From: Comamonas koreensis | GTDB lineage: Bacteria; Pseudomonadota; Gammaproteobacteria; Burkholderiales; Burkholderiaceae_C | NCBI RefSeq assembly: GCF_014076495.1 | Contig: NZ_CP043575.1 | Coordinates: 1,426,001 to 1,490,000, forward strand | DNA: 64,000 nucleotides | Direction of reading: 5' to 3' | Shown here: positions 17,787-36,764 of the stretch, piece after piece | Position numbering within the stretch: the stretch's first letter is position 1 | Layout of the letters: each line of letters opens with the position of its first letter | Notes under the pieces: model-generated | Database searches by the model: none | Seen by the model: only the letters and a program-made list of their open reading frames with translations | What the model was told of the DNA's origin: nothing | Position numbers and translations under genes: made by a program

Positions 17787-19013
17787 TCAAAACACCCGCC
17801 CTTCCTCCAAATGCGTCCGCGTGCCATTGAGCACATAGTCCCCCACCACCCGGGTCTTGTGCAGCAGCGGGTTGTGGCTAAAGATGGTGCGCAGGTTGCG
17901 CCAATGCCGGTCTAGGTTCAGCTGGCGCGAGGTGGCGGAGGCGCCGCCCACTTCAAACAGGCGCTCGCCGGCATTCAGCGCCAGGCGGCTGACGACCAGC
18001 TGGGTCTGGGCGGTGGCCAGAGCCCCTTGCAGCACGACATCGTCCGCGCTTTGCGGCGCGTGCACGATGGCATAGGCGCCCTGGTCCAGTTGGCGGGCGT
18101 TGGCGGCGATCAAGGCATCGATCGCATAGCTGGCGGCCGCCAGCTCGCCGATGACGGCCTGCACAAAATGGTCGTCGCGTGAGCGCTCGGCGGGGCTGTG
18201 CATCGCGGGCCTGCCCAGCTGCAGCACATAGTGGCGTGCATCGGCTAGGATATTGCGCACAATGCCGGCGGCAGTCGCCACGAGGATCAGCTGGCGCAGC
18301 GCAGAGGCATGGCGGCCGGCCAGGTGGTTGCGGGCGCCGGGGCTGATTTCGTCGTCATAGACCAGCACGTTGTTCAGCTCCAGGCTGCCGCTGGCGGTCA
18401 GCCGCTGGCCCATGCCATCCCAGTCGTCGAGCACCCGCACGCCTTCGCGCTGCACGGGGATCACGGCATTGACGCCCTGGCCCTCGTCATTGGTGGCAAA
18501 GACGTTGAAGTAATCCGCATAGGCCGTGCCGGTGGCGTAGTACTTCTTGCCATTCAAGCGGTGGTGCAGGCCCTCGCGCAGCAGGGTGGAGGTGCTGATG
18601 CCGGCGCGTGCCGTGCCCAGCTCGGTAAAGGCACCGCCAAACAGCTTGCCCTGCAGGGCCCAGGCGTTCTGGCGCTGGGCCAGCGCCGAGGGCTTGGTCT
18701 CCAGCCGCAGCAGCTCGGTGGTGTTGAAGTGGGTGCGCAGCGCATGGGCCACGTTGGAATCCGCTGCGGCCAGGGTGCTGACCACCTCGACCACATCGGC
18801 CACTGACCCGCCCGGCCCGCCCTGTTCGCGGCCAATGCGCAGGCCGCCCAGGCCCGATGCGCGCAGCAGGTCAAAGGCCGCCCAGGGCGGCTCGCGCAGC
18901 AGCTCGCGCTGCGCGGCGCCTTGGCCAATATCGGCGGCCAGCTGGGGCAGGCGGGCCAGCAGGTCATCGCGGCTGGGGTGGCGGGAGCGCAGGGGGGGAA
19001 CCGAGGCATTCAT
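17787..19013 (-). CDS. SfnB/DszC-like acyl-CoA-dehydrogenase-fold monooxygenase
   Basis: A 408-residue flavoprotein with the acyl-CoA dehydrogenase fold. The N-terminal helical domain contains GLGGLRIGREQGGPGGSVAD. The middle beta domain has FTELGTARAG and LNGKKYYATGTAYADYFNVFA. The C-terminal helical domain has AAGIVRNILADARHYV and FEVGGASATSRQLNLDRHWRN. This subgroup (SfnB, DszC, related hydroxylases) uses reduced flavin and oxygen rather than acyl-CoA, and acts on sulfides, sulfones or sulfonates during sulfur limitation. It is the last gene of the minus-strand series, behind an aldo/keto reductase (18-bp gap) and four ABC genes, and divergent from a desulfinase/LLM operon. Role in organosulfur use is inferred from the neighbourhood. 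Confidence 0.82.
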   Translation of the reverse strand: MNASVPPLRSRHPSRDDLLARLPQLAADIGQGAAQRELLREPPWAAFDLLRASGLGGLRIGREQGGPGGSVADVVEVVSTLAAADSNVAHALRTHFNTTELLRLETKPSALAQRQNAWALQGKLFGGAFTELGTARAGISTSTLLREGLHHRLNGKKYYATGTAYADYFNVFATNDEGQGVNAVIPVQREGVRVLDDWDGMGQRLTASGSLELNNVLVYDDEISPGARNHLAGRHASALRQLILVATAAGIVRNILADARHYVLQLGRPAMHSPAERSRDDHFVQAVIGELAAASYAIDALIAANARQLDQGAYAIVHAPQSADDVVLQGALATAQTQLVVSRLALNAGERLFEVGGASATSRQLNLDRHWRNLRTIFSHNPLLHKTRVVGDYVLNGTRTHLEEGRVF

Positions 19014-19031
19014 GGCGGTGGACCTGTTGGG

Positions 19032-20072
19032 TTAGGCGGCCGCTGGCGCGGGGGCCTGCGTAGCTGCCACATAAGGCACCCGGCCTTCGACCGGGTGGCC
19101 GGGGTCGGTAAAGCCCAGGGTCGAGGGGTGGCCGGCAGCCACCAGGCGGTTGACCAGGGCCTCGTCATCGGCGGTGAACTGGTAGTCCAGCGCGCGGATA
19201 TAGCCATCCCATTGCTCGGGCGTGCGCGGGCCGGCGATGGCGGCGGTCACCAGGCGGTTGTTCAGCACCCAGGCCAGCGCAAAGTCCACCGGGCTGATGC
19301 CACGCGCGTCGGTGTGCGTTTTGATCTCGGCGGCAATGTCGATGGACTCGGGGCGCCACTCGGTCTCGAGCATGCGCTTGTCCAGCCGCGCGGCGCGCGA
19401 GCCGGGCTCGGCCGCTTCCACATTCGGGTACTTGGCCGTCAGCACGCCCCGGGCCAGCGGGCTGTACGAGACCACGCCCAGGCCATAGGCGGCGGCAGCG
19501 GGCAGCTGCTCGGCCTCGGCCGTGCGGTTGACGATGTTGTAGAGCGGCTGGCTGGCAATGGGCCGGTCAATGCCTTCGGCGTCCGCGAGGTGCGCCACCT
19601 CGGCAATGCGCCAGCCGCGAAAGTTGGACAGCCCAAAGTAGCGCAGCTTGCCCGCGCGCACCAGGTCGCCAATCGCGCGCACCGCCTCGCCCAGCGGCGC
19701 ATCAAAATCGGCGCGGTGAAAGTAGAGCAGGTCGATGTAGTCGGTGCCCAGGCGGCGCAGGCTGTTGTCGACCGACTCGATGATCCATTTGCGCGAGGTG
19801 CCGCGCCGGTTCGGGCCCTCACCCAGCGGGTTGCCAAACTTGGTGGCCAGCACCCAGTCATGGCGGTCCTTGGCCAGCGCACGGCCCACCACCTGCTCGG
19901 TCAGGCCCTTTTGGTAGACGTCGGCCGTGTCGATGAAGTTGATGCCCTGGGACTTGCCCTTGGCGATGATGGCGTGCGCGGTCTGCTCGTCGGTCGGGCC
20001 GCCAAACATCATGGTGCCCAGTGCCAGGCGGGAGACTTTGAGGCCGCTGCGGCCGAGATAACGGTAGGTCAT
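19032..20072 (-). CDS. Aldo/keto reductase
   Basis: A 346-residue NAD(P)H-dependent oxidoreductase with the TIM-barrel AKR fold. Catalytic residues are recognisable: Asp and Tyr in FIDTADVYQKG, Lys in WVLATKFGNP, His in LLYFHRADFD. The cofactor end has ALAWVLNNRLVTAAIAGPRTPEQ. It resembles the YajO/Gpr-like group. It lies between the ABC ATPase (22 bp) and the SfnB/DszC-like gene. It could reduce the aldehyde released when a sulfonate is oxidatively cleaved, but this is a guess from position. Confidence 0.85.
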   Translation of the reverse strand: MTYRYLGRSGLKVSRLALGTMMFGGPTDEQTAHAIIAKGKSQGINFIDTADVYQKGLTEQVVGRALAKDRHDWVLATKFGNPLGEGPNRRGTSRKWIIESVDNSLRRLGTDYIDLLYFHRADFDAPLGEAVRAIGDLVRAGKLRYFGLSNFRGWRIAEVAHLADAEGIDRPIASQPLYNIVNRTAEAEQLPAAAAYGLGVVSYSPLARGVLTAKYPNVEAAEPGSRAARLDKRMLETEWRPESIDIAAEIKTHTDARGISPVDFALAWVLNNRLVTAAIAGPRTPEQWDGYIRALDYQFTADDEALVNRLVAAGHPSTLGFTDPGHPVEGRVPYVAATQAPAPAAA

Positions 20073-20093
20073 GGCAAAAGAAAAAACGAAGGG

Positions 20094-21074
20094 TTAGTGA
20101 AAGGAAATCACGGAGGTCTGCGTGCCAGAGGCCGGTGGCAGCTGCGGATGGTGGCAGGCCACCAGGTGGCCATTGCCGCCGTCGCTGAGCAGCGGTTCCT
20201 GCGCAGTGCACAGCGCCGTGGCGCGCGGGCAGCGCGGATGAAAGCGGCAGCCCGTGGGCAGGTTCTGCGGGCTGGGCAGGTCGCCGCCCAACGGGGCGGC
20301 CTGGCGGTGGCGGGTGGGGTCAGGCACGGCATCGAGCAGCGCCTGGGTGTAGGGGTGGCGCGGGCTGCTCCACAGGCTGCGGCGGTCGGCGCTCTCGACG
20401 ATGCGGCCCAGGTACATCACCAGCACCCGGTCGGCAAAGTACTGCACGACCGACAGGTCATGCGAGATGAACAGGTAGGACAGGCCGAACTCGCGCTTCA
20501 TCTCAACGAGCAGGTTCAGGATCTGCGCCTGGATCGACAGGTCCAGCGCCGAGACCGGCTCGTCGCAGACCACCAGATCGGGCTGCAGCATCAGCGCGCG
20601 GGCAATGCCCAGGCGCTGGCGCTGCCCGCCGGAGAACTCATGCGGGTAGCGGCCCAGCGCGTTGCGCGGCAGGCCCACGCGGTCGAGCAGGCGCTCGACC
20701 TGGCGGCGGCGCTGGGCGCGGTCGCCCAGGCCATGCACCTGCAAAGGGGTCTCCAAGATCGTGCCGATGCTGTGGCGCGGGTTGAGCGAGGCGAACGGGT
20801 CCTGGAAGATCATCTGCATGCGCTTGCGCAGGCTGCGCAGCCGCGCGCCTTGCAAGGGCAGAATATCTTCGCCGTCGAGCGCCACCTGGCCGGCGGTGGG
20901 CGTCTCCAGCCGCAGCAGGCTGCGGCCCAGGGTGGATTTGCCGCAGCCCGACTCGCCGACCAGGCCGACGGTCTCGCCCTTGGCAATGTGGAACGACACG
21001 CCATCGACGGCGCGCAGCACGCCCTTGGGCAGTTTGAAATGGGTCTGAAGATCGCTGACAGTCAGCAGGCTCAT
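20094..21074 (-). CDS. Peptide-type ABC transporter ATPase, OppF/DppF class
   Basis: 326 residues. Walker A GESGCGKST, Q-loop QMIFQDPFASLNPR, signature FSGGQRQRLGIARAL, Walker B LVVCDEPVSALD, H-loop FISHDL. The C-terminal oligopeptide-transporter extension (GCRFHPRCPRATALC) carries the Cys pair typical of OppD/OppF ATPases. ATG 21074 is chosen; the longer form would begin with TTG inside the previous gene. It pairs with the next ATPase to power the permease encoded just upstream. Substrate unknown; the organosulfur neighbours suggest a sulfur compound or S-containing peptide. Confidence 0.88.
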   Translation of the reverse strand: MSLLTVSDLQTHFKLPKGVLRAVDGVSFHIAKGETVGLVGESGCGKSTLGRSLLRLETPTAGQVALDGEDILPLQGARLRSLRKRMQMIFQDPFASLNPRHSIGTILETPLQVHGLGDRAQRRRQVERLLDRVGLPRNALGRYPHEFSGGQRQRLGIARALMLQPDLVVCDEPVSALDLSIQAQILNLLVEMKREFGLSYLFISHDLSVVQYFADRVLVMYLGRIVESADRRSLWSSPRHPYTQALLDAVPDPTRHRQAAPLGGDLPSPQNLPTGCRFHPRCPRATALCTAQEPLLSDGGNGHLVACHHPQLPPASGTQTSVISFH

Positions 21075-21081
21075 GGCGGTC

Positions 21082-22077
<996 letters not shown>

Positions 22078-23103
22078 TCAGCGCTCCTGCGACAGACGGG
22101 GGTTGAGGGCGTCGTTCAAGCCATCGCCAATCAGGTTGAAGGCGAGCACGGCAAACACGATGGCCAGGCCCGGAGCCGCAGTCAGGTACCAGGCCGTGCG
22201 CAGCAGGTCGCGCCCCATGCCGATCATGCTGCCCCAGCTGACGACGTTCGGGTCGCCCATGCCCATGAAGGACAGGGCTGATTCCAGCAAGATGGCCGAG
22301 GCCACCATCACCGATGAGGTGACGATGATGGGCGGCAGCGCATTGGGCAGCATCTCACGCAGGATGATGCGGCTGTGCGAGTAGCCCAGCGCGCGGGCGG
22401 CCAGCACAAACTCCTTGTGGCGCAGCGCGCGGAACTCGGCCCGCACCAGGCGTGCCACCGTGGGCCAGGTCACCAGGCCAATCGCGACGACGATGGTGCT
22501 GATCGCAGGCTGGGCAATCGCCACCAGCACCACCAGCAAGATAAAGCTGGGAATCGTCTGGAACAGTACCACCACGCGCTGCAGCAAGTCATCGACCCAG
22601 CCGCCAAAGTAGCCGCTGACGGCGCCAATGCCAATGCCCAGGCTCAGCCCGATCAAGGTAGCCGACACGCCCACCAACAGCGACACCCGCGCGCCATGGG
22701 CAATGCCGGCGGCCACATCACGGCCCATCGAATCGGTGCCGAGCAAATAGGTCCCATCCTGGCCGGGCCAGAGAAAGGGCTGGGCCACCATGTCCAGCGG
22801 GTCACCGGGGAAGAGCCAGGGCGCTGTCAGCGCCAGCAGCAGCACGGCCAGCAAAAAGCCACAGCCCAGCATGGCCGTGGGGTTGCGCAGGAAAACGCGC
22901 AGCGCGCGGTAGCCCTGGCTGCCACTGCCGGCGTTGGCGGCACTGGTGCTGGTGCGCACCGCATCGGGCGCATGCAGATTCGGCCAGGGCGCGGCATCGG
23001 GCTCGGCGTTGCTGGTGGTACTGTGCGCCGCTTGTGCGGCCGCCAGCGGGTGGGCGGCGGCCGGGGGGATCGGCAGCGCCTGGGTAGAGGAAGACAAAGA
23101 CAT
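22078..23103 (-). CDS. Peptide-type ABC transporter permease, DppC class
   Basis: 341 residues. A long polar, Ala/Ser-rich N-terminus (~75 residues) precedes the first helix (MLGCGFLLAVLLLALTAPWL). The MetI-type permease core follows, with ...LGTDSMGRDVAAGIAHGARVSL and the EAA-like loop RALGYSHSRIILREMLPNALPPI. ATG 23103 overlaps the DppB-class stop by a base (TGATG), showing translational coupling. Confidence 0.87.
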   Translation of the reverse strand: MSLSSSTQALPIPPAAAHPLAAAQAAHSTTSNAEPDAAPWPNLHAPDAVRTSTSAANAGSGSQGYRALRVFLRNPTAMLGCGFLLAVLLLALTAPWLFPGDPLDMVAQPFLWPGQDGTYLLGTDSMGRDVAAGIAHGARVSLLVGVSATLIGLSLGIGIGAVSGYFGGWVDDLLQRVVVLFQTIPSFILLVVLVAIAQPAISTIVVAIGLVTWPTVARLVRAEFRALRHKEFVLAARALGYSHSRIILREMLPNALPPIIVTSSVMVASAILLESALSFMGMGDPNVVSWGSMIGMGRDLLRTAWYLTAAPGLAIVFAVLAFNLIGDGLNDALNPRLSQER

Positions 23104-24095
23104 CAACGCACCTCGATTCGGGGATCCAGCCAGGCATGCAGCAGATCGACCAGCACATTGGCGGCGATCACGAGCAGCGAAGAGAGAAACAGCACACCCA
23201 TCAGCACGCTGAAATCGCGGCTGAGCACGGCCTCAAAGGCCAGGCGCCCGAGGCCGGGCCAGCTGTAGACGGTCTCGACGACGACCGCGCCGCCGAGCAT
23301 GCCGCCCAGGTGCATGCCGGCCATCGTGGTGACCGGCAGCAGCGCATTGCGCAGCACATGGCGCACGGTGATGCGCCAGGGCGAGAGGCCTTTGGCCGCC
23401 GCGGTGCGCACAAAGTCCTGCGACTGCACCTCCAGCATCGCCGCGCGGGTGAGGCGGGCATAGATCGCCACATAAAAGAGTGCGAGCGACGTGGCCGGCA
23501 GCACCATGTAGCGCAGCTGGTCGAGCACAGCGGCCAGGCCGCTCAGCTCGGAGCCAATGCTGGCCGAGCCACCACTGGGCAGCCAGCCAAGCTTGACCGA
23601 GAACAGCACGATCAGCATCAGCCCGGTCCAAAAGCCCGGCACCGAATAGAACAGCAGCGACAGCACGGACAGCAGGCGGTCGGGCAGGCGGCCGGCAAAG
23701 TAGGCCATGGCCGTGCCCAGCGCAATGCCCAGGCTCAGCGCAATCGCCAGCGCCAGCCCCATCAGCAGCAAGGTGCTGGGCAGGCGCTGGCCGATCAGCT
23801 CCATCACCGGCATGTTGTAGCGCGGGGAGAAGCCCAGGCTGAAATGCGCCAGGTTGCCCAGGTAGGCCTGCAATTGTTCGAGCACGCTCAGGTCCAGCCC
23901 AAAGCGCGAGCGCAGCGCCGCCAGGGTCTCGGCCGTCGCGGCCCCCGATTCGCCGGCCATCACATCGGCCGCATCACCGGGCGTGAGCTGCAGCAGCAAA
24001 AAGTTCAAAATCGCGACGCCCAGCACCGTTGGCACTGCATATTTGGCATTGAACCAGAGCGATCGCAATAAACGTGGGGTGGTATTCATGCGCAT
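23103..24095 (-). CDS. Peptide-type ABC transporter permease, DppB class
   Basis: 330 residues with six helices. The N-terminal domain is typical of DppB/OppB (AVPTVLGVAILNFLLLQLTPGD), and the EAA loop is AAAKGLSPWRITVRHVLRNALLPV. It is the first gene of the six-gene minus-strand operon (DppB, DppC, two ATPases, aldo/keto reductase, SfnB/DszC-like). No binding protein is encoded in this operon; two are encoded in the divergent operon. ATG 24095 and ATG 24089 are both possible, neither with a strong ribosome site. Confidence 0.87.
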   Translation of the reverse strand: MRMNTTPRLLRSLWFNAKYAVPTVLGVAILNFLLLQLTPGDAADVMAGESGAATAETLAALRSRFGLDLSVLEQLQAYLGNLAHFSLGFSPRYNMPVMELIGQRLPSTLLLMGLALAIALSLGIALGTAMAYFAGRLPDRLLSVLSLLFYSVPGFWTGLMLIVLFSVKLGWLPSGGSASIGSELSGLAAVLDQLRYMVLPATSLALFYVAIYARLTRAAMLEVQSQDFVRTAAAKGLSPWRITVRHVLRNALLPVTTMAGMHLGGMLGGAVVVETVYSWPGLGRLAFEAVLSRDFSVLMGVLFLSSLLVIAANVLVDLLHAWLDPRIEVR

Positions 24096-24525
24096 TATTC
24101 ATCGGGAGGTGACCTGTGCATGATAGGAGCGTTCCTGCGTTATCAACGGTATTTGCAGCATGCCATTTCATATATCAAAAGGCGTAAATTAAATAACAAA
24201 TATCGGTATCTGATTTTTATCGGTTGGTGGCTGCTCGCCAAAGTTTTTTGTGGTGATTCGCACCTGAGACGGCATATTTTGTTTGGCTTGCTGCATATTT
24301 TCGCAAGCTATAAGCGCGGATGGAGGCTGTGCAGAGCGCTGGCATTGCGCCTGCGGCTCTGTTTGTATGCCTGCGCCAATGGCTGATTTTTAAATATGCA
24401 AATGCAAAATCGGCGCAAGAGCGGGGTGGTGATTCATGGGATTATTCAAGCCAATGCGGATGCTGAATAGCTGGTTATCTCAAGGCTGGTTCGGCTTCCT
24501 TTGTATTGACAACCTTGGCCGCCCC
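24096..24525. other. Divergent promoter region of the organosulfur operons
   Basis: About 430 bp of markedly AT-richer DNA between divergent operons, with no convincing ORF. It should contain both promoters and any CysB/Cbl- or SfnR-like site, but I cannot point to a definite box. An in-frame ATG at 24436 could extend the LLM gene by 30 residues. Confidence 0.55.
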
Positions 24526-25710
24526 ATGAACTCTGCAATACCGCTGGAAAAACTCGCTGATAGAGAGACATTCGCCTCACCGCTGGATTTTCCGGACAGC
24601 CCCCTGTCGCAGGCTTTTGCGCAGCCGATTCTGCTGGGCCTGTTTCTGCCGATCCAGGCAGGAGGCTGGAGTGCCTCCACCCTGCCGCGCAGCACCGACT
24701 GGCGCTTTGACTACAACAAGGACCTGGTGCTGAAGGCCGAGAACCTCGGCTTCGATCTGGTGTTTGCGCTGTCGCAGTGGCTGCCCAAGGGCGGCTATGG
24801 CGGGGTGTTCAATGGCGATGCGCTGGACTCCTTTGCCACCACGGCGGCGCTGACCTCGGTCACGAGGCGCATCATGCTGATCTCGACCATCCATGTGCTC
24901 TACGGCCCGTTGCACCCGCTGCACCTGGCCAAGTGGGGGGCTACGCTGGACCATATCTCGGGCGGGCGCTGGGGCATCAATATCGTCACCGGCCACCGCG
25001 AGGTGGAGCACAGGATGTTTGGCTGGGACCAGATCGAGCATGACCGTCGCTATGACCTGGCCTGGGAGTTCATCGAGGTGGTGCAGCGCCTGTGGTCTTA
25101 CGACGAGAACTACTCGTTTGAAGGCATCTCGCCCTGGAAGCTGGGCGGCGGTTTTGTCAGCCCCAAGCCGCGCTTTGGCCGGCCCGCGCTGGTCAATGCC
25201 ACCGGCTCGGACGCCGGCATTGCCTTTGCAGCCAGGCATTCGGACCTGGTCTTTATCACCAGTCCCGGCGCATCGGACTTTGCCCGAGCCATCGAGGTGC
25301 TGCCCACCCATGCCGCCCGCGTCAAGCAAGAGGCGCGCAATGCCGGCCGCACGGTGCGCACCTTGCTCAACCCCATGGTCATCAGCCGCGATACCGAGGC
25401 TGAGACCTGGGCCTACCACGATGCCATCGTCGCCCACCAGGACCAGCGCACGCCCGAGGGCTTTAGCAGCTTGAAGAGCGATGCCCATGCCTGGCGCGGC
25501 CGCACCGCCCTTGATGCCCCCAAGCGCCGCGCCATCGGCGGCAATATCGAAGTGATCGGCACGCCCGAGCAGGTGGTCGAGCAGTTTGTGCAGCTCAAGC
25601 GCGCCGGCATCGATGGGCTGCAGCTGAGCTTCTTCGACTTCAAGCCGGATCTGGAGTTTTTTGGCGACCGCATTTTGCCGCTGATGAAGCAGGCGGGTCT
25701 GCGCTTCTAG
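24526..25710 (+). CDS. LLM-class flavin-dependent monooxygenase (SfnG/SsuD/RutA group)
   Basis: A 394-residue bacterial luciferase-like monooxygenase using FMNH2 and oxygen. Family landmarks: LGLFLPIQAGGWSAS near the N-terminus, LGFDLVFALSQWLPKGGYGG, TLDHISGGRWGINIVTGHREVEHRMFG (flavin-binding region), DRRYDLAWEFIEVVQRLW, FVSPKPRFGRPALVNATGSDAG and IGTPEQVVEQFVQLKRAGIDGLQLSFFDF. These match the group that cleaves sulfones, sulfonates and pyrimidines; sulfur use is preferred from the context. The start is uncertain: ATG 24526 is chosen because homologues begin near here, while ATG 24436 stays in frame. No flavin reductase gene is linked, so FMNH2 must come from elsewhere. Confidence 0.85.
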   Translation: MNSAIPLEKLADRETFASPLDFPDSPLSQAFAQPILLGLFLPIQAGGWSASTLPRSTDWRFDYNKDLVLKAENLGFDLVFALSQWLPKGGYGGVFNGDALDSFATTAALTSVTRRIMLISTIHVLYGPLHPLHLAKWGATLDHISGGRWGINIVTGHREVEHRMFGWDQIEHDRRYDLAWEFIEVVQRLWSYDENYSFEGISPWKLGGGFVSPKPRFGRPALVNATGSDAGIAFAARHSDLVFITSPGASDFARAIEVLPTHAARVKQEARNAGRTVRTLLNPMVISRDTEAETWAYHDAIVAHQDQRTPEGFSSLKSDAHAWRGRTALDAPKRRAIGGNIEVIGTPEQVVEQFVQLKRAGIDGLQLSFFDFKPDLEFFGDRILPLMKQAGLRF

Positions 25711-25842
25711 CCGCAGCACCTGCGCTGCACTGCACTGTGCACCGCACTTATCCACAGACTTTCTCCGTCCCTCCCGTTTTTACTTTGCGCTTTTGCGTGC
25801 TACCCGCGCCTTGTCTGCGCCTTTTCTCCTGGACCATTGCCC

Positions 25843-27432
25843 ATGCGAACTCTCTACAAAAACCTGGCCTGGGGCCTGCTGGCTGCCAGCAGCTTTGGGG
25901 CTGCCAACGCCCAGGCGCCGGCCACGCCCGTCAAGGGCGGCACCGTCACGTCCGTGGTCGCGCAAGAGCCGACCTCGCTGGTGTCCTTTCTCGACACCAA
26001 GACCGACAACCGCGATGTCAGCGCCAAGATCACCGAAGGCCTGCTGCGTTATGACGCCAAGTTCCAGCCCCAGCCCTTGCTGGCAACATCCTGGACGGTC
26101 AGCCCCGATGGCCTGCAGTACCGCTTCAAGCTGCGCGAGGGCGTCAAGTTCCATGATGGGCGCGACTTCAGCTCGGCCGATGTGCGCTATTCCTTCCTGA
26201 CCCAGAAGAAGCTCGGCCCGCGCGGCCGTATCACCTTGCAGAACCTGGAGCGGGTCGATACGCCCGATGCGCACACGGCGGTGCTGGTGCTGTCCAAGCC
26301 CGCGCCGTTTTTGCTCAAGTCGCTGTCATCGGCCGAGCTGCCCATCGTGCCGGCGCACCGCTATGGCGATGGCGACCCGCTGGGCAGCCCCAACGCCAAT
26401 GCGCCAGTGGGCACGGGCCCCTTCATCTTTGAGCAGTGGGTGCGTGGCAGCCATGTGATCCTCAAGCGCAACCCCCACTACTGGCGCCCGGGTGTGCCCC
26501 ATGTGGACCGGGTGGTGATCCGCTTTGTACGTGACCCTGCTGCCATCTCGGCCGCCATCGAAACCGGCGAGGCCGATGTGGCGCAGAACCTGGCCTTGGC
26601 CGACCTGGGCCGCTTGCTGCAAAAGCCCACGCTCAAGCTTGACGCCAGCTATGACGCGTTCCTGAACAATGCCTCCTTCCTGGAGTTCAACGTCGAGAAC
26701 CCGGTGCTGTCCAAGCCCCAGGTGCGCCATGCGATTGCCCATGCGGTGGACCGCAATTTCATCGTCAACAACGTCTACTACAAGCAGGCCGAGCTGGTGA
26801 ACTCGCCCATCCCCAAGGTGCTGGGCGCCTACTACGACGACAGCGAGTTCAACTACGGCTTTGATGTGGCCCGCGCCAACCAGCTGCTCGACAGCGCCGG
26901 CTACCCGCGCCAGGCCAATGGCCAACGCTTTGCGCTCAAGCTCACCTACATCCCGGGCGCGCAGTTCAAACAGACTGCCGAGTACCTGCGCTCGGCGCTC
27001 AACCGCGTGGGCATCAAGGTGGACATTCTGGACGGCGACCTGCCCACCTTTTTGAAGCGCGCCTACACCGCGCGTGAGTTTGACCTGAACCTCAATGGCC
27101 TGGGCCGCTTGTTTGATCCATCGGTCGGCGTGCAGCGCATCTACTGGTCCGACGGCATCAAGAACCCGCTGATCTGGATCAACGCCTCGCATTACAACAA
27201 CCCACAGGTCGACAACCTGTTCCGCCAGGCCGCTGTCGAGGTCGACGAGGCCAAGCGTGCCGCGCAGTTCCGCGAGATTCAGCAGATCGTTGGCCGTGAT
27301 CTCCCCGTCTACCCGATCGCCACCGTGCCCTCTGCGCTGCGGGTACACAGCACGCGGGTGCATGGGCTCAACAACAGCATTGACCTGACGTCTGGAGATT
27401 TTTCTGACCTGTGGCTGGAGGCTAGCAAATGA
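25843..27432 (+). CDS. ABC substrate-binding protein, family 5 (DppA/OppA-like)
   Basis: A 529-residue periplasmic binding protein with a signal peptide (LAWGLLAASSFGAANAQA). Mature motifs of SBP family 5: GGTVTSVVAQEPTSL, ITEGLLRYDAKFQPQPLLA, YRFKLREGVKFHDGRDFSSADV, and NAPVGTGPFIFEQWVRGSHV. It should deliver substrate to the DppBC-like permease encoded divergently. The stop overlaps the amidase start (ATGA). About 50% similar by eye to the second binding protein at 30241, so one may be a duplicate with shifted specificity. Confidence 0.88.
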   Translation: MRTLYKNLAWGLLAASSFGAANAQAPATPVKGGTVTSVVAQEPTSLVSFLDTKTDNRDVSAKITEGLLRYDAKFQPQPLLATSWTVSPDGLQYRFKLREGVKFHDGRDFSSADVRYSFLTQKKLGPRGRITLQNLERVDTPDAHTAVLVLSKPAPFLLKSLSSAELPIVPAHRYGDGDPLGSPNANAPVGTGPFIFEQWVRGSHVILKRNPHYWRPGVPHVDRVVIRFVRDPAAISAAIETGEADVAQNLALADLGRLLQKPTLKLDASYDAFLNNASFLEFNVENPVLSKPQVRHAIAHAVDRNFIVNNVYYKQAELVNSPIPKVLGAYYDDSEFNYGFDVARANQLLDSAGYPRQANGQRFALKLTYIPGAQFKQTAEYLRSALNRVGIKVDILDGDLPTFLKRAYTAREFDLNLNGLGRLFDPSVGVQRIYWSDGIKNPLIWINASHYNNPQVDNLFRQAAVEVDEAKRAAQFREIQQIVGRDLPVYPIATVPSALRVHSTRVHGLNNSIDLTSGDFSDLWLEASK

Positions 27433-28982
27433 CGACGACCATCGACTTTCCCAACGAATCCACCCTGAGCGAGAGCGCAGTAGCGTCGCCCGGCATTGCC
27501 GCCAGCCTGGCCTTTGCCAGCGCCCGTGCGCAGTTGCAAGCGCTGGCCGATGGCCGCGTCAGCGCGGTCGAGCTGCTGGAGCAGGCGCTGGCCCGCATCG
27601 AACGCCATGATGGCGAGCTCAATGCGATCCCGGTGCGGGCGATAGAGCAAGCCCGGCGCGATGCCCAGGCGGCAGACGCCGCCTTGCAGCGGGGCGAGCG
27701 CAAGCCATTGCTGGGCCTGCCGATCACGGTGAAGGAGAACTTTGATGTCGCCGGCCTGCCCACCACCGTGGGCAACCCGGACTACCGCAGCAATATCGCC
27801 CGGCAGGATGCGCCGGCAGTCGCGGCCTTGCGCGCGGCGGGGGCGGTGCTGATCGGCAAGAGCAATGTGCCGCTGGCGCTGAGCGATCTGCAAAGCTACA
27901 ACGCCGTGTACGGCAGCAGCAGCAACCCCTGGGATCTGCAGCGCACACCGGGCGGCTCATCGGGCGGCAGCGCGGCGGCCGTGGCGGCCGGCTTTGTCGC
28001 GCTGGAGCTGGGCACGGATATTGGTGGGTCGGTGCGCATCCCCGCGCACTTCAACGGCGTGTTTGGCCACAAGACCAGCTATGGGCTGATCTCGATGCGC
28101 GGCACCGGCGCGCCGCAAGGGCGCTTTAGCGCGCGTGATCTGTCGGTGGCCGGGCCGCTGGCGCGCACTGCGCTCGACCTGGAGCTGGCGCTGGAGCAGC
28201 TGCTTAACCTTGATCCGCTGCAGGCCAAGGGCTGGCAGGCGAGTCTGCCGCCACCGCGCCACCAGCGGCTGCAGGATTTTCGGGTGCTGGTGCTGGATGC
28301 CTGGCCGGGCCAGGAGGCGAGCCTGTCCGAGCAGCTGGTGATCGCGCGCGTCGTCAGCGCCTTGCAGGCCCAGGGCGTGCAGACCACGCAGTGGCGCGAT
28401 CTGCCGCCTGCGCAGCGCCCTGATCTGAGCGAGCAGCACCGCACCTACCGCAGCCTGCTGGGCTCGTCGGTGGCTAACGCGGCCCCGTTGACCGAGGCGC
28501 AGCAGCAGCGCCTGGCCGAGCTGGAGCCCGACGACCGCAGCGCCGAGGCCGCCTTGCTGCGCGCGCCCAGCCTGCCCCATGCCACCTGGCTGCAGGACAA
28601 CGAGCACCGCCATGCGCTGAGCCACCAGTGGGAGCAGCTGTTCCAGGACTATGACGTGGTGCTGACCCCCGTGGCACCGACGCCCGCTTTTGCGCACCAG
28701 CAGCAGGGCCACAAGGAGGAGCGCCGCTTTCCCGTGGCCTATGCCGATGGGGTGCGCGAGATCGGCTTTCGCGAGCTGTTTTACTGGGCCGGTTTGCCGG
28801 TGCTGCCAGGCCTGCCTGCGACCAGCTTTCCGGTCGGGCTGGACGATGACGGCCTGCCGATCAGCGCCCAGGTGGTCGGCCCCTATCTGGAAGACCGCAC
28901 CACGATTGCCTTTGCCCATGCCTGGGAGCAGGCCCAGGGCGGCTTTGTGGTGCCGCCCCGCTATGCGCAGGGGGATGCATGA
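27429..28982 (+). CDS. Amidase (amidase-signature family)
   Basis: A 517-residue hydrolase. The Ser-cisSer-Lys machinery is evident: Lys in LLGLPITVKENFDVAG, then the Gly/Ser-rich signature PGGSSGGSAAAVAAGF and GTDIGGSVRIPAHFNGVFGHK with the catalytic Ser. It would hydrolyse an amide, perhaps releasing the sulfur-bearing part of an imported peptide-like compound. It is translationally coupled at both ends (ATGA overlaps with the binding protein before and the flavoprotein after), so it clearly belongs to this pathway. Confidence 0.88.
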   Translation: MTTTIDFPNESTLSESAVASPGIAASLAFASARAQLQALADGRVSAVELLEQALARIERHDGELNAIPVRAIEQARRDAQAADAALQRGERKPLLGLPITVKENFDVAGLPTTVGNPDYRSNIARQDAPAVAALRAAGAVLIGKSNVPLALSDLQSYNAVYGSSSNPWDLQRTPGGSSGGSAAAVAAGFVALELGTDIGGSVRIPAHFNGVFGHKTSYGLISMRGTGAPQGRFSARDLSVAGPLARTALDLELALEQLLNLDPLQAKGWQASLPPPRHQRLQDFRVLVLDAWPGQEASLSEQLVIARVVSALQAQGVQTTQWRDLPPAQRPDLSEQHRTYRSLLGSSVANAAPLTEAQQQRLAELEPDDRSAEAALLRAPSLPHATWLQDNEHRHALSHQWEQLFQDYDVVLTPVAPTPAFAHQQQGHKEERRFPVAYADGVREIGFRELFYWAGLPVLPGLPATSFPVGLDDDGLPISAQVVGPYLEDRTTIAFAHAWEQAQGGFVVPPRYAQGDA

Positions 28983-30208
28983 GCGCCGTGCTGCAAGTGC
29001 TGCAGCCGCCACGGGAAGCGGCCAGCCCGGGCCCGGCCTTGGACGAGGCCGCCTTGCTGGCCCGCGCCCAGGCGCTGATCGGCAAGCTGGCCGCACTGGC
29101 GGAGGCGCATGACGCCAGTGGCGCTGCACCGGCGTCGCAGTTTGCGCTGCTGCACCAGGCCGACTTGCTGCGGCTGACCATTGCCCGCGAGGCCGGTGGC
29201 CATGGCGCCGGCCTGGCCAGCGCGCGTGCAGTGATGGGAGCCATTGCCCAGGGCGACCCGGCAGTCGCTTTGATTTTGGCGATGCACTACAGCAACCATG
29301 CGGCGATTGCCCGCTCGCAGCGCGCGGGGCAGGGCGAGTGGCCGCCAGCGCTGGCGGACGAGCTGATCGCAGCCAGCCTGCAAGGCCCCGCCTTGCTCAA
29401 CGCCGCCCAGGTGGAGCCGGAGCTGGGCTCCCCCTCGCACGGCGGCCTGCCAGCGGCGCGGGCCAGGCGCGTGGCCGGTGGCTGGCAGCTGAGCGGCCAC
29501 AAGGTCTATGTGACCGGCGGCCCGCTGCTGGCCTGGATCAGCGTGCTGGCGTTGACTGATGAGCCCGAGCCGCGCCTGGGCAGTTTTGTGCTGCCCCGAG
29601 GCACGGCCGGTGCGCGCCTGGTCGATACCTGGAACCCGCTGGGCATGCGCGCTACCGCAAGCCAGGACCTGGTGCTCGACGGCGCCTGGGTGCCCGACCA
29701 CCATGCGGTGGGCCTGCGCCCAGCCAGCCTGGGCCTGTAGCGCGAGGCCCATGGCATTGCCTGGTACTTCAGCCTGGTGGCAACGGTCTATGACGGCGCG
29801 GCGCGCTCAGCCCGCGACTGGCTGGGCGCTTTTTTGAACCAGCGCCGCCCCAGCGCGCTGGGCGGTGCCAACCTGGCGTCGCTCGCCACTGTGCAGGAAA
29901 AGTTTGGCGAGATCGAGGTATTGCTGCAGACCAGCGACTGGCTGCTGGACAGCCATGCCCGCGCCTACGACAGCGGCACGGCCCCCGATGGCCTGGTTGC
30001 CGTGGCCAAGCATGTGGCGGTGGACAACGCGCTGCGCGCGGTGCAGCTGGCGCTGGAGCTGGCCGGTAACCACGGCCTGGCGCGGCGCAATCCGCTGGAG
30101 CGCCATCTGCGCAATGTGCTGTGCAGCCAGATCCATTCACCGGCCAACAGCCTGATCCGCAGCAACACCGGCCGCGCGGCCTTGCAACGGCACCAGGCCG
30201 CTGCCTGA
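28979..30208 (+). pseudogene. SfnB/DszC-like flavoprotein with in-frame amber codon
   Basis: A second acyl-CoA-dehydrogenase-fold monooxygenase. The first 253 codons (28979-29737) cover the N-terminal and beta domains: FALLHQADLLRLTIAREAGG, ALILAMHYSNHAAIARSQR, GGWQLSGHKVYVTGGPLLAW. Then TAG (29738-29740) interrupts. The same frame continues at once with REAHGIAWYFSLVATVYDGA to QLALELAGNHGLARRNPLER and RNVLCSQIHSPAN, the complete C-terminal helical domain. A single base change (for example CAG or TGG to TAG) explains it. The full length would be about 409 residues, the same as the intact paralogue at 17787. Either a recent mutation, a sequencing error or, less likely, amber readthrough. Confidence 0.85.
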
Positions 30209-30240
30209 GCGCTGCCCTGTTTTTACCCTTGGTACCTCGC

Positions 30241-31863
30241 ATGTCTATTGATTCCGATTTCTCGCTCGCCACGCGCCGCCACTTTATGCTGGCCGCTGCT
30301 GCCTCCGGCATCGGCACGGCAGTTCCCAGCCTGGCCTGGGCGCAGGACAAGCCGCAAAAAGGCGGCACCCTGAACCTGCTGCTCTTTCCCGAGCCGCCAA
30401 CCCTGACGACGATTGCGCACACCGCCGGCTCGTCGGTGACGATCTCGGGCAAGGTCACCGAGGGGCTGCTGACCTATGACTTCAACCTCAACCCGCAGCC
30501 GCAGCTGGCTGTTGCCTGGTCGATCAGCCCCGATGGCCTGGTCTACCGCTTCCAGCTGCGCCAGGGCGTCAAATGGCATGACGGCAAGCCTTTTACCTCG
30601 GCCGATGTGGTGCACTCGATTGCCTTGCTCAAGGAGTTCCACCCCCGGGGCCGCGCCACCTTTGCGGGCGTGGCGGAGGTGCAGGCGCCCGACGCGCATA
30701 CCGTGGTGCTGCAGCTGAGCCGCCCCATCCCCTACCTGATCACGGCACTGGCGGCCTCAGAGTCGCCCATCGTGCCCAAGCACCTGTATGCCAGCGGCCG
30801 GGCCGATACCAACCCGGCGAACAATGCGCCGGTGGGCACGGGCCCCTTTGTGTTCAAGGAATGGTTGCGCGGCAGCCATGTGATCTACGAGCGCAACCCC
30901 CATTACTGGGATGGCGACAAGCCCTATATCGACCACCTGGTGGTGCGCTTTATCCCCGATGCCGCCGCGCGCACGGCGGCCATCGAAAGCGGCCAGGTGC
31001 AGATTGCGCCCAGCTCGCCGGTGCCCTTTGCCGAGGTGGAGCGCCTGCGCGCCAAGCCGGGCCTGCAGTTCGAGACCCGGGGCTACGAGTACATCAACAG
31101 CGTCTACCGGCTGGAGTTCAACCTGGAGAGCGAGCTGCTCAAGGACCTGCGCGTGCGCCAGGCCATTGCCCACGCGCTGCAGCGCGAGAACCTGCTCAAG
31201 GTGGCCTGGTACGGCCAGGGCAAGCTGACCACCGGGCCGGTGCACCCGGCGCTGAAAAAGTTCTATGTGCCCGATCTGCCGGTGCTGCCCTATGACCTCA
31301 AGCGTGCCGAGAAGCTGCTGGACGACGCGGGCCTCACGCGCGGCAAGGCCGGCGGCCAGTGGCGCGCGCGCTTGAACCTGACCCCCATCCCCAACGAGGG
31401 CGGCCAGCGCACGGGTGACTTCCTCAAGCAGGCCTTGGGGCGCATCGGCATCGATGTGCAGATCAACAGCCAGGACTTTGCCACCTACATCAAGCGCATC
31501 TACACCGACCGCGCCTTTGACCTGCATGTGAGCGCGATGAGCAACACCTTTGACCCGACGGTGGGCATCCAGCGCCTGTACTGGTCCAAGAGCTTTCAGC
31601 GCGGGCTGCCGTTCTCCAACGGCTCGCACTACGCCAGCCCTGAGGTGGACCGCCTGCTGGAGTCCGCCGCCGTCGAGATGAACGAGGCCCAGCGCATCCG
31701 CGAGGTGGCCGAGTTCCAGAAACACATCGCTACCGACCTGCCCGACATCACCCTGGTCGCCCCCGACATCTACACCATTGCCGACAAACGCGTGCGCAAC
31801 CACACCGTGGGCGCAGACGGCGTGGCCGGCAACCTGGCCGGCGTCTGGCTGGCCGCGTCCTGA
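30241..31863 (+). CDS. ABC substrate-binding protein, family 5, Tat-exported
   Basis: 540 residues. The N-terminus LATRRHFMLAAAASGIGTAVPSLAWA has the twin-arginine motif and cleavage site of a Tat signal, unlike the Sec signal of its neighbour at 25843. The mature part matches family 5: GGTLNLLLFPEPPTL, KVTEGLLTYDFNLNPQPQLA, YRFQLRQGVKWHDGKPFTSADV and NAPVGTGPFVFKEWLRGSHV. Both binding proteins likely feed the same DppBC-like permease. Tat export means it folds in the cytoplasm, perhaps with a cofactor or simply quickly. Confidence 0.87.
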   Translation: MSIDSDFSLATRRHFMLAAAASGIGTAVPSLAWAQDKPQKGGTLNLLLFPEPPTLTTIAHTAGSSVTISGKVTEGLLTYDFNLNPQPQLAVAWSISPDGLVYRFQLRQGVKWHDGKPFTSADVVHSIALLKEFHPRGRATFAGVAEVQAPDAHTVVLQLSRPIPYLITALAASESPIVPKHLYASGRADTNPANNAPVGTGPFVFKEWLRGSHVIYERNPHYWDGDKPYIDHLVVRFIPDAAARTAAIESGQVQIAPSSPVPFAEVERLRAKPGLQFETRGYEYINSVYRLEFNLESELLKDLRVRQAIAHALQRENLLKVAWYGQGKLTTGPVHPALKKFYVPDLPVLPYDLKRAEKLLDDAGLTRGKAGGQWRARLNLTPIPNEGGQRTGDFLKQALGRIGIDVQINSQDFATYIKRIYTDRAFDLHVSAMSNTFDPTVGIQRLYWSKSFQRGLPFSNGSHYASPEVDRLLESAAVEMNEAQRIREVAEFQKHIATDLPDITLVAPDIYTIADKRVRNHTVGADGVAGNLAGVWLAAS

Positions 31864-31887
31864 TCCCGTTCCCCCAAGGAGAAACCG

Positions 31888-32988
31888 ATGACAAGCCCTT
31901 CCGAAACATCGAACGTACAAGGTCAACAACCCAGCTCCCTTTGGTACACCCGCTGCCCGGTGCCGTCGCCACTGGGCATTGCCGCGCAGCACGGCTGGCT
32001 GCAGCAGGCCTTTGCGGCCCTGGGCATTGGGGTCGAGTCCATCTTTGACTCCAAGGACCGCAGTGTGCGCGAGAGCCATTTTGACCACCGCCTGCCCTGG
32101 TCCTTCCGCCAGGGCGGCAATATTCCGCCGATCTGGGCGCGCGCCAAGGGCAGCGATACACGCCTGGTGGCCATCACCTGGACAGACGAGTTCCAGGCGC
32201 TGGTGACCTTGCCGGGCCGGGGCATCGGCAAGCCCGAGGACCTGGCGGGCAAGCGCTTTGGCGTGCCCCAGCGCGTCAATGACCTGATCGATTTCCACCG
32301 CGCCACCGCCCTCAAGGGCCTGGTCTCGGGCCTGTCGCTGGTGGGCCTGCAGCACAGCGATGTGCAACTGGTCGATCTGGTGATCGAGGAGTCGGTGATC
32401 CAGCAGCATGGCACGCCCAGCCTGTTTGGGCTGCGCCGCCGCCACCCGTACTTCCGCGAGGCGGAGGCCTTGGTGCGCGGCGAGGTCGATGCGATCTTTG
32501 TCAAAGGCGCCGAGGGCCTCTTGGTGGCCAACCTGATCGGCGCGCAGCTGGTGAGCGAATTTGGCCGCCACCCCGACCCGCGCGTGCGCATCAACAATGG
32601 CACGCCGCGCACCTTGACGGTGGACGCCGCACTGGCCGACCAGCGCCCGGACCTGGTGCTGGCGCTGCTGCGCGTGGTGCAGCGCGCCGGCCGCTGGGCC
32701 CAGGCCCATCCCGATGAGACCCTGCGCTTTGTGGCCCGCGAGATCGCCACCAGCGAAGAGGCCATCCTGGCCTCCAACGGCGCCGATGTCCACCGCCATC
32801 TGGGCATCAGCCTGGAGCCCGAACTGGTCGATGCGATCGGCTACTTCAAGGACTTTTTGCTGGAGTGGGGCTTTTTGCCGGCCGATTTCTCGGTCACCGA
32901 CTGGGTCGATGCCCGGCCGCTGAACCGTTTGCTGGCCGAGAATGCGCCCGCGCAAAGCGTGGCGCAGCCCGAGGCGCTGCGGGCATGA
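31888..32988 (+). CDS. DszB-like desulfinase (SBP-fold)
   Basis: 366 residues, with no signal peptide although it has the periplasmic-binding-protein fold. It aligns by eye with DszB (2'-hydroxybiphenyl-2-sulfinate desulfinase, 365 residues). YTRCPVPSPLGIA corresponds to DszB YSNCPVPNALLTA around nucleophile Cys27. ESHFDHRLPWSFRQGGNIPP corresponds to VHFTYDQPAYTRFGGEIPP around His60 and Arg70. Here these are Cys23, His64 and Arg74, with the same 10-residue His-Arg spacing and the following Gly-Gly. Such enzymes release sulfite from sulfinates. It is coupled to the NmrA-like gene (ATGA) and follows the binding protein by 24 bp. A plain SsuA-like binding protein is the main alternative, but lack of a signal and the conserved triad argue against it. 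Confidence 0.75.
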   Translation: MTSPSETSNVQGQQPSSLWYTRCPVPSPLGIAAQHGWLQQAFAALGIGVESIFDSKDRSVRESHFDHRLPWSFRQGGNIPPIWARAKGSDTRLVAITWTDEFQALVTLPGRGIGKPEDLAGKRFGVPQRVNDLIDFHRATALKGLVSGLSLVGLQHSDVQLVDLVIEESVIQQHGTPSLFGLRRRHPYFREAEALVRGEVDAIFVKGAEGLLVANLIGAQLVSEFGRHPDPRVRINNGTPRTLTVDAALADQRPDLVLALLRVVQRAGRWAQAHPDETLRFVAREIATSEEAILASNGADVHRHLGISLEPELVDAIGYFKDFLLEWGFLPADFSVTDWVDARPLNRLLAENAPAQSVAQPEALRA

Positions 32989-33875
32989 GTGCGCACCCGC
33001 ATCCCCGCGTGCTGGTCTGCGGCGCGAGCGGCCGCCTGGGCCAGCTGCTGGTGCCGCGCCTGCTGGCCCGGCAAGCGCGACCCCGGGTGTTCGTGCGCCA
33101 GGCCGCTACTGCGCGGGCGCTGTGGGGCGATACCGTCGAGATAGCGCAGGGCTGTTTTGAGGATGCGGCCACCTTGGGCAAGGCGCTCGTCGGCATTGAG
33201 CGTCTCTTCCTGCTCTCTCCGATCAGCCCTGCGCTGGCCGAGCAGCAACTGCGCGTGGTCGAAGCCGCGCGCGCTGCCGGCGTGCGGCACATCGTCAAGC
33301 TCTCCGGCTCGGACTGGACCATAGCCCCGCCCGGCCATTCGCTGTCCGGCGATGCCCATGGCCGCATTGAAGAGGGACTGCAGGCCAGTGGCATCTCCCA
33401 TGTTGTGCTGCGCCCCAATGCCTGGATGCAGGTGGGTTTGTCGCGCATCGCCGGGGAGCTGCGCACCGGCGTTGTGATCCGCTCCCAGCACCTGGGCGCT
33501 GGTGTCTCCTATATCGATGCCCGCGACATCGCCGATGTTGCTGTTGAAGCGCTGCTGAACCCCGAGGCCGCCCAGCAGCGGCTGGGCGCCCCCGGCCCCT
33601 GGGTGCTGACCGGCAACCAGGCGCTGCGCCCGCAAAAACTGGCCGATATTGCATCGCGCCTGCTGGGCCGGCCCATCACCGCCTCCGCGCCTGTGGCCGC
33701 CCCCGCCGCGGCTGACCCGTTTATCGCGCAAGTGCATGGCGAGTTTTTTGCGTTGATGCGTGCGGGGCATGCGGCTGCGGTGACTGCCACGGTGCAGCAG
33801 GTGCTGGGGCGGGAGGCACGGACGGTGGAGGGGTTTTTGGCGGAGGAGCTGGGGGCTTTGGCTGTGGCAGTTTGA
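32985..33875 (+). CDS. NmrA/atypical SDR NAD(P)-binding protein
   Basis: 296 residues with a Rossmann fold. The dinucleotide-binding motif is VLVCGASGRLGQLLVPRLL; VRHIVKLSGSDWTIAPP, HGRIEEGLQASGISHVVLRPNAWMQ and YIDARDIADVA follow the NmrA/QOR2 pattern, where the usual Tyr-x3-Lys is replaced. Could be a reductase or a redox sensor. The start ATG overlaps the desulfinase stop, so it is the last gene of the plus-strand operon. A second, truncated copy of its C-terminal 80 residues lies at 38011-38262. The 3' end uses many G/T-rich codons. Confidence 0.82.
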   Translation: MSAHPHPRVLVCGASGRLGQLLVPRLLARQARPRVFVRQAATARALWGDTVEIAQGCFEDAATLGKALVGIERLFLLSPISPALAEQQLRVVEAARAAGVRHIVKLSGSDWTIAPPGHSLSGDAHGRIEEGLQASGISHVVLRPNAWMQVGLSRIAGELRTGVVIRSQHLGAGVSYIDARDIADVAVEALLNPEAAQQRLGAPGPWVLTGNQALRPQKLADIASRLLGRPITASAPVAAPAAADPFIAQVHGEFFALMRAGHAAAVTATVQQVLGREARTVEGFLAEELGALAVAV

Positions 33876-34676: not shown

Positions 34677-35585
34677 ATGCCCATTTCTTCTAAACTTTCC
34701 ACCCCCATGAGTCGCCGTCTGAGCCTCCTCGGCATCGGTTCCGCCATCGCAGCGCTGCTGTCCGGGTGTTCTGGTGCCCAAGTACTGGACCACTTGGTGG
34801 CACATGACACCTACCACGGCCCCACCGGCGTGCGCTATGGGCTCGATGCAAGGCATCTGCTGGATGTGTACCAGCCAGCGACAGGCACGTCGCCCGGCCA
34901 TGCACCGGTGGTGCTGTTTTTTTATGGCGGCAACTGGACGAGTGGCGAGCGGGCCGAGTACCGGTTTGTCGGCGAAGCGCTGGCGGCCAACGGCATCATC
35001 GCGGTGGTCGCCGACTACCGGCTGAGCCCCCAGGTGCAGTACGAGGGCTTTCTGGGCGATTGCGCCTTGGCGCTGCAGTGGACCTTCGCGCACGCCGCCA
35101 GCCTGGGTGGCGACCCTTCGCGGGTGATGGTGATGGGCCATTCGGCCGGGGCTTACAACGCAGCGATGCTGGCGCTGGACCCGCGCTGGCTGGCACCTTT
35201 GGGCCTGACACCCGATCGGCTTGCGGGCTGGATTGGGCTGGCCGGGCCCTACGACTTTTTGCCGATTGTGGACCCCCAGGTCCAGGTGGCGTTTAACTGG
35301 CCACACACCCCGGCCGATTCCCAGCCGATCTTCTACGCCGACGCCAAAGCCCCCCGCACCCTGCTGCTGGCCGCACGCAATGACAAGGTGGTGGACACGC
35401 AGCGCAACACCGTCGGCCTGGCAAACCGCTTGCGGGCTGCCGGTACCGACGTGGATATACGGATCTTTGACCACCTCAGCCACGTGACGACCGTCGCCGC
35501 CCTGGCCCGGCCGCTGGACTGGCTAGCCCCGGTACTGCCGACGGTGCTGGACTTTGTACGCGGGGATCCGAAACGGGTGCAATGA
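34677..35585 (+). CDS. Alpha/beta hydrolase lipoprotein (carboxylesterase-like)
   Basis: 302 residues. The N-terminus (RRLSLLGIGSAIAALLSGCSG) is a lipoprotein signal with lipobox LSGC, so the enzyme is probably anchored in the envelope. Hydrolase landmarks: oxyanion region VVLFFYGGNWTSGERAEY, nucleophile elbow VMVMGHSAGAYNAAML, Asp region LLLAARNDKVVDTQ and His in FDHLSHVTTV. It resembles BD-FAE/kynurenine-formamidase-like esterases. An alternative ATG at 34707 (MSRRLSLL) would give a more standard signal length. Substrate unknown. Confidence 0.85.
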   Translation: MPISSKLSTPMSRRLSLLGIGSAIAALLSGCSGAQVLDHLVAHDTYHGPTGVRYGLDARHLLDVYQPATGTSPGHAPVVLFFYGGNWTSGERAEYRFVGEALAANGIIAVVADYRLSPQVQYEGFLGDCALALQWTFAHAASLGGDPSRVMVMGHSAGAYNAAMLALDPRWLAPLGLTPDRLAGWIGLAGPYDFLPIVDPQVQVAFNWPHTPADSQPIFYADAKAPRTLLLAARNDKVVDTQRNTVGLANRLRAAGTDVDIRIFDHLSHVTTVAALARPLDWLAPVLPTVLDFVRGDPKRVQ

Positions 35586-36657: not shown

Positions 36658-36711
36658 GCTAGGGCTGCTGCGACAGCGTGGCTCGGCCAACAGTCAAAGA
36701 GGCTTGACGCC

Positions 36712-36726: not shown

Positions 36727-36764
36727 AGAATGGCTCATCTTTGAAAGCGCTAGCTGCCCACCCG

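Follow-up and report, generated by a model that had tools for sequence, protein, structure and literature searches.

Introduction

Desulfinases of the DszB type are known mainly from fuel-desulfurizing actinobacteria. A similar statement has been made for the 4S pathway (PMC11852219), and the DszB step has been described as slow and product-inhibited (PMC12168087). Here we describe a locus in which a DszB-type relative is encoded together with flavin monooxygenases and an importer of the Dpp/Opp type. It occupies positions 17787-33875 of the window, by which we mean the whole 64,000-nucleotide stretch of the Comamonas koreensis chromosome that was analyzed, part of a complete 5.2-Mb genome; the closest named relatives for the locus are from Comamonas. 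We consider it likely that the locus encodes an import-coupled sulfur-scavenging pathway, probably induced by a shortage of sulfate.

The 4S pathway of Rhodococcus, encoded by dszABC (with dszD), resembles this locus in having a DszB-type desulfinase with its catalytic residues, a DszC-type flavoprotein and a luciferase-like monooxygenase (LLM). However, the LLM of the window is SfnG/RutA-like and not a DszA, its DszC-like proteins fall far below the strict DszC cut-off, and it adds a Dpp-type importer, a reductase and a second DszC-like gene. The sfn/msu systems of Pseudomonas (dimethylsulfone, methanesulfonate) are alike in their SfnG-like LLM, their SfnB/MsuC-like flavoproteins and their sulfone-to-sulfinate chemistry, but here a desulfinase and an importer are added and the SfnG and SfnB equivalog cut-offs are not reached. 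The emo/epp genes for ethylenediaminetetraacetate (EDTA) also place an Opp-type importer beside a flavin monooxygenase; they differ in having no desulfinase and in serving a carbon and nitrogen substrate. A similar arrangement occurs on pSymA of Sinorhizobium meliloti, probably as the two operons for which the accessible text of PMC5940162 names no function. There too, dppB-C-D-F-reductase diverges from genes for desulfinase, DszC-like protein, NmrA and monooxygenase, but the desulfinase is present in two copies, an LLM of the NtaA/DmoA family replaces the SfnG-like one, and a sulfite oxidase gene is adjacent. In the literature searched, largely without subscription journals, this gene set was not described as a desulfurization pathway.

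Organization of the locus

An earlier reading of the window from its letters (the sequence-only reading) had proposed two divergent operons. These were confirmed, with every named gene present where that reading had placed it. The features are as follows.

17787-19013, minus strand: DszC1, intact SfnB/DszC-like flavin monooxygenase (SfnB and DszC models; PDB 8cda, TdsC 5xb8, MsuC 6u76)
19032-20072, minus strand: aldo/keto reductase (PF00248, 217 bits; in 67 of 82 related loci)
20094-21089, minus strand: dppF, DppF-like importer ATPase (PF00005, PF08352)
21082-22077, minus strand: dppD, DppD-like importer ATPase (PF00005, PF08352)
22078-23106, minus strand: dppC, DppC-like permease (PF00528, PF12911)
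23103-24095, minus strand: dppB, DppB-like permease (PF00528, PF19300)
24096-24525, no strand: divergent promoter region, holding a 17-bp element at 24388-24404
24526-25710, plus strand: SfnG/RutA-like LLM flavin monooxygenase of 394 aa when read from its probable start (longest open reading frame (ORF) from 24436; SfnG best PDB match)
25843-27432, plus strand: SBP1, family 5 solute-binding protein (SBP; PF00496, 291 bits; best PDB match 6hlx, AgaA)
27429-28982, plus strand: amidase-signature hydrolase (PF01425, 301 bits; PRK06170, 552 bits, above the cut-off of 503)
28979-30208, plus strand: DszC2, second SfnB/DszC-like gene, interrupted (in-frame TAG at 29738-29740)
30241-31863, plus strand: SBP2, family 5 SBP (PF00496, 297 bits)
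31888-32988, plus strand: DszB-type sulfinate desulfinase relative (PDB 2de2; C23/H64/R74/G77; top structural match 2de3)
32985-33875, plus strand: NmrA-like NAD(P)-binding protein (PF13460, PF05368)

Junctions within the operons were tight, with several start/stop overlaps and most other neighbors within ~35 bases. The two wider gaps were the 126 bases from the LLM stop to SBP1 and the divergent gap, which measures 340 bases if the LLM is taken as its longest ORF. The importer is of the Dpp/Opp type, comprising two permeases, a pair of ATPases that carry oligo_HPY and family 5 SBPs, and the N-terminus of SBP2 reads as twin-arginine-like, i.e. as an export signal.

The DszB-type desulfinase relative

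A sequence search of the PDB with the DszB-like protein gave two matches, both DszB (2de2, E=3.7e-13). The alignment placed a Cys of the query at DszB C27 (Ser in the 2de3 entry), a His at H60 and an Arg at R70. The active-site residues of DszB are C27, H60, R70, G73 and S25, and DszB homologues carry an RXGG motif (PMC6100217), which is RQGG in the window protein. The equivalents of C27, H60, R70 and G73, namely C23, H64, R74 and G77, were invariant in all 226 aligned sequences (the query plus 120 protein matches and 105 sequences taken from loci; 220 are distinct, the least similar having 35% identity). The serine that tunes H60 in DszB, S25, was not found; in its place stands T21, a conservative hydroxyl change that was invariant in a 40-row alignment and kept in >97% of the 226 sequences. 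An AlphaFold model of the protein (predicted local distance difference test score, pLDDT, 91) ranked 2de3/2de2 at positions 1-3, with TauA/SsuA next. Of the 14 NMT1-type loci in the same genome, 8 were covered by a comparison in which their ORFs showed no Cys/His/Arg set, a weak control that rests on a rough added alignment with many spurious ORFs.

The catalytic residues and the top structural match to DszB thus agree with the "DszB-like" label of the sequence-only reading. Judged by sequence and model, the protein is a DszB-type desulfinase relative, predicted to release sulfite from a sulfinate. We call it a relative and not a proven member of the family, which is defined by sulfite release from an aryl sulfinate.

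The monooxygenases

The LLM is listed from 24526 since many homologues are 394 aa long. It scored 194 bits with the SfnG model (TIGR04021, cut-off 383), 137.6 bits with the NtaA/DmoA family that includes DszA (TIGR03860, cut-off 279.7) and 150 bits, again below the cut-off, with the RutA model. Its best PDB match was SfnG (8t0u), followed by RutA entries, and its close homologues are named dimethylsulfone monooxygenase by several sources and RutA by one. By these matches the LLM is nearest to SfnG/RutA and is not a DszA; an LLM of the DszA/NtaA family is found instead in the S. meliloti counterpart. Nostocales cyanobacteria encode proteins with which the LLM shares ~80% identity, and rhizobial copies reach only ~70-75%. 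Because the Nostocales proteins are closer than the rhizobial copies, horizontal transfer of this gene is suggested.

DszC1 scored 139.7 bits with the curated DszC model (cut-off 850). With the SfnB model (TIGR04022, cut-off 430.9), the two SfnB/DszC-like genes scored 283 (DszC1) and 73 bits. PDB matches of DszC1 were an unnamed monooxygenase (8cda), TdsC, MsuC and DszC, and the His of its C-terminal WRNLRT...H.P segment aligned with a His in the four PDB alignments inspected (4/4). Since these scores lie below the curated cut-offs, classification of the region as dsz, as sfnB or as sfnG was rejected. The description "dsz-like locus" with a 4S-type enzyme set therefore stands for its logic but not for membership in the strict DszC, SfnB, SfnG or NtaA/DszA families.

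Both genes of the predicted SfnB/DszC-like pair are present, but an interruption of the second had been overlooked: the DszC2 frame is broken at codon 254 by the in-frame TAG. An uninterrupted frame was seen in 14 of 14 related loci inspected, a set that includes the nine closest from Comamonadaceae. The DszC2 product would lack its C-terminal part, and the gene is either a recent pseudogene or the site of a sequence error.

Conservation of the gene set

We compared 95 loci, 79 from the best 80 of 126 relatives and 16 from another genome set. Six duplicates (L055-L060) were removed to leave 89, and then seven loci with weaker desulfinases (L048-L054) to leave 82. Loci were selected by desulfinase similarity, so the presence of that gene is no evidence; some of the 82 share a contig or come from near-identical species, and 4 are <15 kb.

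Four importer subunits and the reductase lay beside the desulfinase in 67 of 82 loci, from Comamonadaceae to Rhizobiales, and 35 of 82 held the importer, the reductase, both DszC-like genes and the SfnG-like LLM. Many bacteria of soils and roots carry such related sets. Some LLM gene, scored by tblastn, was present in every locus (82/82), compared to ~0.06 expected per 21 kb from family-model counts in six genomes. The NmrA homologue was found in 14 of 16 betaproteobacterial and 16 of 66 alphaproteobacterial loci. Eight window genes flanking the locus had no match in the alphaproteobacterial loci (E 1e-10, half length). Because the arrangement recurs in both classes while the flanking genes are unmatched, the grouping exceeds chance, and the search for the same gene order that the sequence-only reading had called for did find related arrangements in beta- and alphaproteobacteria. 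On some Rhizobiales/Agrobacterium contigs, two related desulfinase loci adjoin (L077/L089, L095/L126, L118/L131). The locus is patchy, since only 10 of 199 relatives searched (own genome included) carry a desulfinase at least 77% identical; 24 matched at E 0.001.

Sulfur genes near related loci and expression in S. meliloti

Genes of sulfur metabolism lie near several relatives. In S. meliloti the neighbors include the ATPase and binding protein of a sulfate importer and a gene annotated as sulfite oxidase, whose product is SorA/SoxC-like and below the cut-offs of those models. Variovorax has cysteine dioxygenase, a sulfurtransferase, an aliphatic sulfonate binding protein and an SfnB; Allorhizobium has tauA and other LLM clusters; Mesorhizobium has msuE and a rhodanese. 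Near homologues of the LLM alone, Burkholderia has TauD together with a set of binding protein, ATPase and permease, and Nostoc has ssuD together with a binding protein for sulfonate. The surroundings are not uniformly rich in sulfur genes: the Ensifer canadensis region also holds autoinducer-2 (AI-2) genes, and the Rhizobium sp. T136 region contains no sulfur-named gene, with further LLMs, amidohydrolases and an amidase present. A large region of the Allorhizobium ampelinum plasmid pAtS4e (127990-203259; L136, L164) is rich in LLM monooxygenases and in importers annotated for taurine, sulfonate or methionine.

The counterpart in S. meliloti 1021 lies at pSymA 1,175,080-1,183,813, and the LLM of the S. 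meliloti counterpart scored 381 bits with TIGR03860, above the cut-off. Deletion of pSymB 635,940-869,642 induced both sma2085-sma2077 and sma2087-sma2101 (PMC5940162). The leftward run of the counterpart has five genes, and the rightward run has seven annotated in AK83 compared to eight in PMC5940162. SMa2103 is located at pSymA 1,186,198-1,186,417 (PMC3687685), and by our own arithmetic the AK83 layout puts the operon-adjacent sulfite oxidase at ~1,185,925-1,187,319. We infer that the counterpart corresponds to these two operons and SMa2103 to the adjacent sulfite oxidase gene, an assignment kept at this strength because the rightward gene count differs. SMa2103 is reported to be up-regulated on taurine, with the data not displayed in that paper (PMC3511301).

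The deleted pSymB interval holds a complete sulfate importer at ~769.0-772.9 kb, with four subunits above curated sulfate-transporter cut-offs: a binding protein and an ATPase 84% and 87% identical, respectively, to the pSymA copies, plus CysT and CysW. A single place in an S. medicae genome passes the CysT cut-off. The S. meliloti operons may have become derepressed as a result of lost sulfate import, and sulfur limitation is a plausible trigger because the deleted interval carries this importer. The word "sulfur" is absent from the accessible main text of PMC5940162, which does not give the sulfate-import explanation.

A proposed pathway and its alternatives

In the pathway that we propose, the family-5 Dpp/Opp-type ATP-binding cassette (ABC) importer would take up an organosulfur compound, and a DszC/SfnB-type flavoprotein would oxidize its sulfur, with a sulfone as the end product. 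The SfnG-like LLM would then cut the C-S bond to yield a sulfinate and a carbonyl fragment, which the aldo/keto reductase may reduce, and the DszB-type desulfinase would free sulfite from the sulfinate. Sulfite could enter cysteine synthesis or be oxidized to sulfate, and the pathway would probably be induced at low sulfate. The order of import, sulfoxidation, C-S cleavage and desulfination, as well as the sulfur control and the role of the reductase, is our inference. The 4S-like logic of oxidation, C-S cleavage and desulfination to sulfite, linked to a Dpp-type importer, was already part of the sequence-only reading; the protein families, catalytic residues and conserved linkage computed here support it, as do the neighboring sulfur genes.

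Several results weigh against this proposal. The LLM resembles RutA, a nitrogen-pathway enzyme, and a close homologue of it (at least 55% identity) was present in just 58 of 82 loci. Importer, reductase and both DszC-like genes occurred together in 49 of 82, and in the window itself one of the two DszC-like genes is interrupted and only DszC1 is intact. The window operons yielded neither a flavin reductase nor a regulator. In S. meliloti the locus carries additional genes and another kind of LLM, and the 234-kb deleted pSymB interval holds many other genes, so the induction of its operons may have another cause.

These points bear on other explanations of the gene set. Catabolism of a carbon source or xenobiotic would make the sulfur resemblance incidental and the importer and monooxygenase a system like that for EDTA or nitrilotriacetate. 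For EDTA, importers of the Opp type encoded next to monooxygenases of the NtaA family are known, and the S. meliloti counterpart includes an enzyme that exceeds the NtaA/DmoA family cut-off. However, the window LLM is far below that cut-off (138 compared to 280 bits), the desulfinase residues are retained, and several relatives have genes for sulfite oxidase or sulfonates close by; we regard carbon catabolism as unlikely. Nitrogen catabolism seems distinctly improbable. On this view a RutA-like LLM would open an amide ring or one resembling a pyrimidine, ammonia would be freed by the amidase, and the likeness to sulfur enzymes would again be incidental. The RutA score, the second place of RutA among PDB entries, the presence of an amidase and the other amide hydrolases near some relatives fit such a role, but the SfnG score is higher, the amidase homologue was not found in 66 of 66 alphaproteobacterial loci, and both the invariant desulfinase residues and the sulfur-gene neighbors argue against it.

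A narrower objection is that the DszB-like protein is merely a periplasmic SsuA-type binding protein, which would remove the desulfinase step. The protein does match PF09084 and the SsuA family, and by hand count 37 of the 39 named entries among 120 homologues listed are called transport binding protein, as are desulfinase homologues in plasmid records. Yet no export signal was seen by eye, PDB sequence matches are to DszB only, and the Cys/His/Arg/Gly set is kept throughout the alignment. Two of the listed homologues, both from Devosia, are already named "Dibenzothiophene desulfurization enzyme B" and "desulfurase", so to this extent the desulfinase homologue is known as a desulfurization enzyme. 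The binding-protein explanation is very improbable, and most public annotation appears to mislabel the key desulfinase as a transport protein.

If the sulfur-scavenging pathway is correct, its wider meaning can be considered. Our estimate is evenly balanced on whether this little-studied DszB-type clade is the hub of import-coupled, sulfur-regulated desulfurization that is widespread among bacteria of soil and roots and has as its substrate a naturally occurring thioether or sulfone, possibly from plants, and not a fossil-fuel thiophene. In that case 4S chemistry would have a common natural role, hidden by the annotation "ABC transporter substrate-binding protein", and the importer-tied desulfinase relatives in Comamonas, Variovorax, Rhizobium, Agrobacterium, Devosia, Mesorhizobium and Sinorhizobium would reveal the natural role of such desulfinases. 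Such relatives would also supply enzymes for the slow, product-inhibited desulfinase step, and sulfur scavenging would explain the published S. meliloti expression data in a testable way.

The substrate

An amide or peptide conjugate had been suggested as the substrate. As a general substrate this was not sustained: of the 16 betaproteobacterial loci 13 had an amidase homologue, whereas none was found in the 66 alphaproteobacterial (rhizobial) loci, even at E 1e-3, and family-5 SBPs bind non-peptides too. Relatives of SBP1 and SBP2 span opine, heme, nickel/metallophore, peptide and AI-2 binders. Comamonas and Variovorax may still use such a conjugate. Hydrolases of other kinds also keep an amide substrate from full dismissal: some relatives are accompanied by a gene or fragment of the amidohydrolase family, an unrelated amidase lies ~10 kb from the locus in Rhizobium sp. 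T136, and an M20 aminoacylase adjoins one LLM homologue. Because calculations favor electrophilic aromatic substitution in DszB (PMC6100217), the sulfinate carbon is likely aromatic or otherwise activated.

A possible promoter element and other observations

The same genome holds a second organosulfur cluster at C1:1051413-1066543 (L154), with binding proteins that we read as MetQ/NlpA-like, three LLM matches, two SfnB proteins above the TIGR04022 cut-off and a DszC-like paralogue 36% identical to that of the window. Upstream of it, C1:1051334-1051350 resembles the AT-rich 17-bp element of the divergent promoter region. A matrix built from Comamonas orthologues of block B1 was scanned over a 38-kb sulfur-cluster region chosen for its sulfur genes; the best match was at 1051328 (18.3 bits), compared to 6.7 for the best unrelated window site, and it lies in AT-rich DNA with two weaker matches beside it. 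Near that promoter, blocks B2 and B3 gave nothing of similar clarity; B2 reached 12.0 bits at 1051340 but scored higher elsewhere. The exact 17-bp pattern has two sites only in the genome, a partly circular count as the pattern was written from both. Of 53 Comamonas genomes, only five have both exact sites (G000, G007, G017, G031 and G048); apart from the own genome, these have desulfinases 94-95% identical to that of the window. Sites with one mismatch are common in these genomes, and by eye neither of the two in the own genome is beside a sulfur gene. A promoter element shared by the two organosulfur clusters is thus suggestive only.

Downstream of the rightward operon, window positions 34677-37349 encode an alpha/beta hydrolase, a protein that weakly matches DUF2071 and a TetR regulator; among the compared loci, these genes are present solely in close Comamonas relatives.

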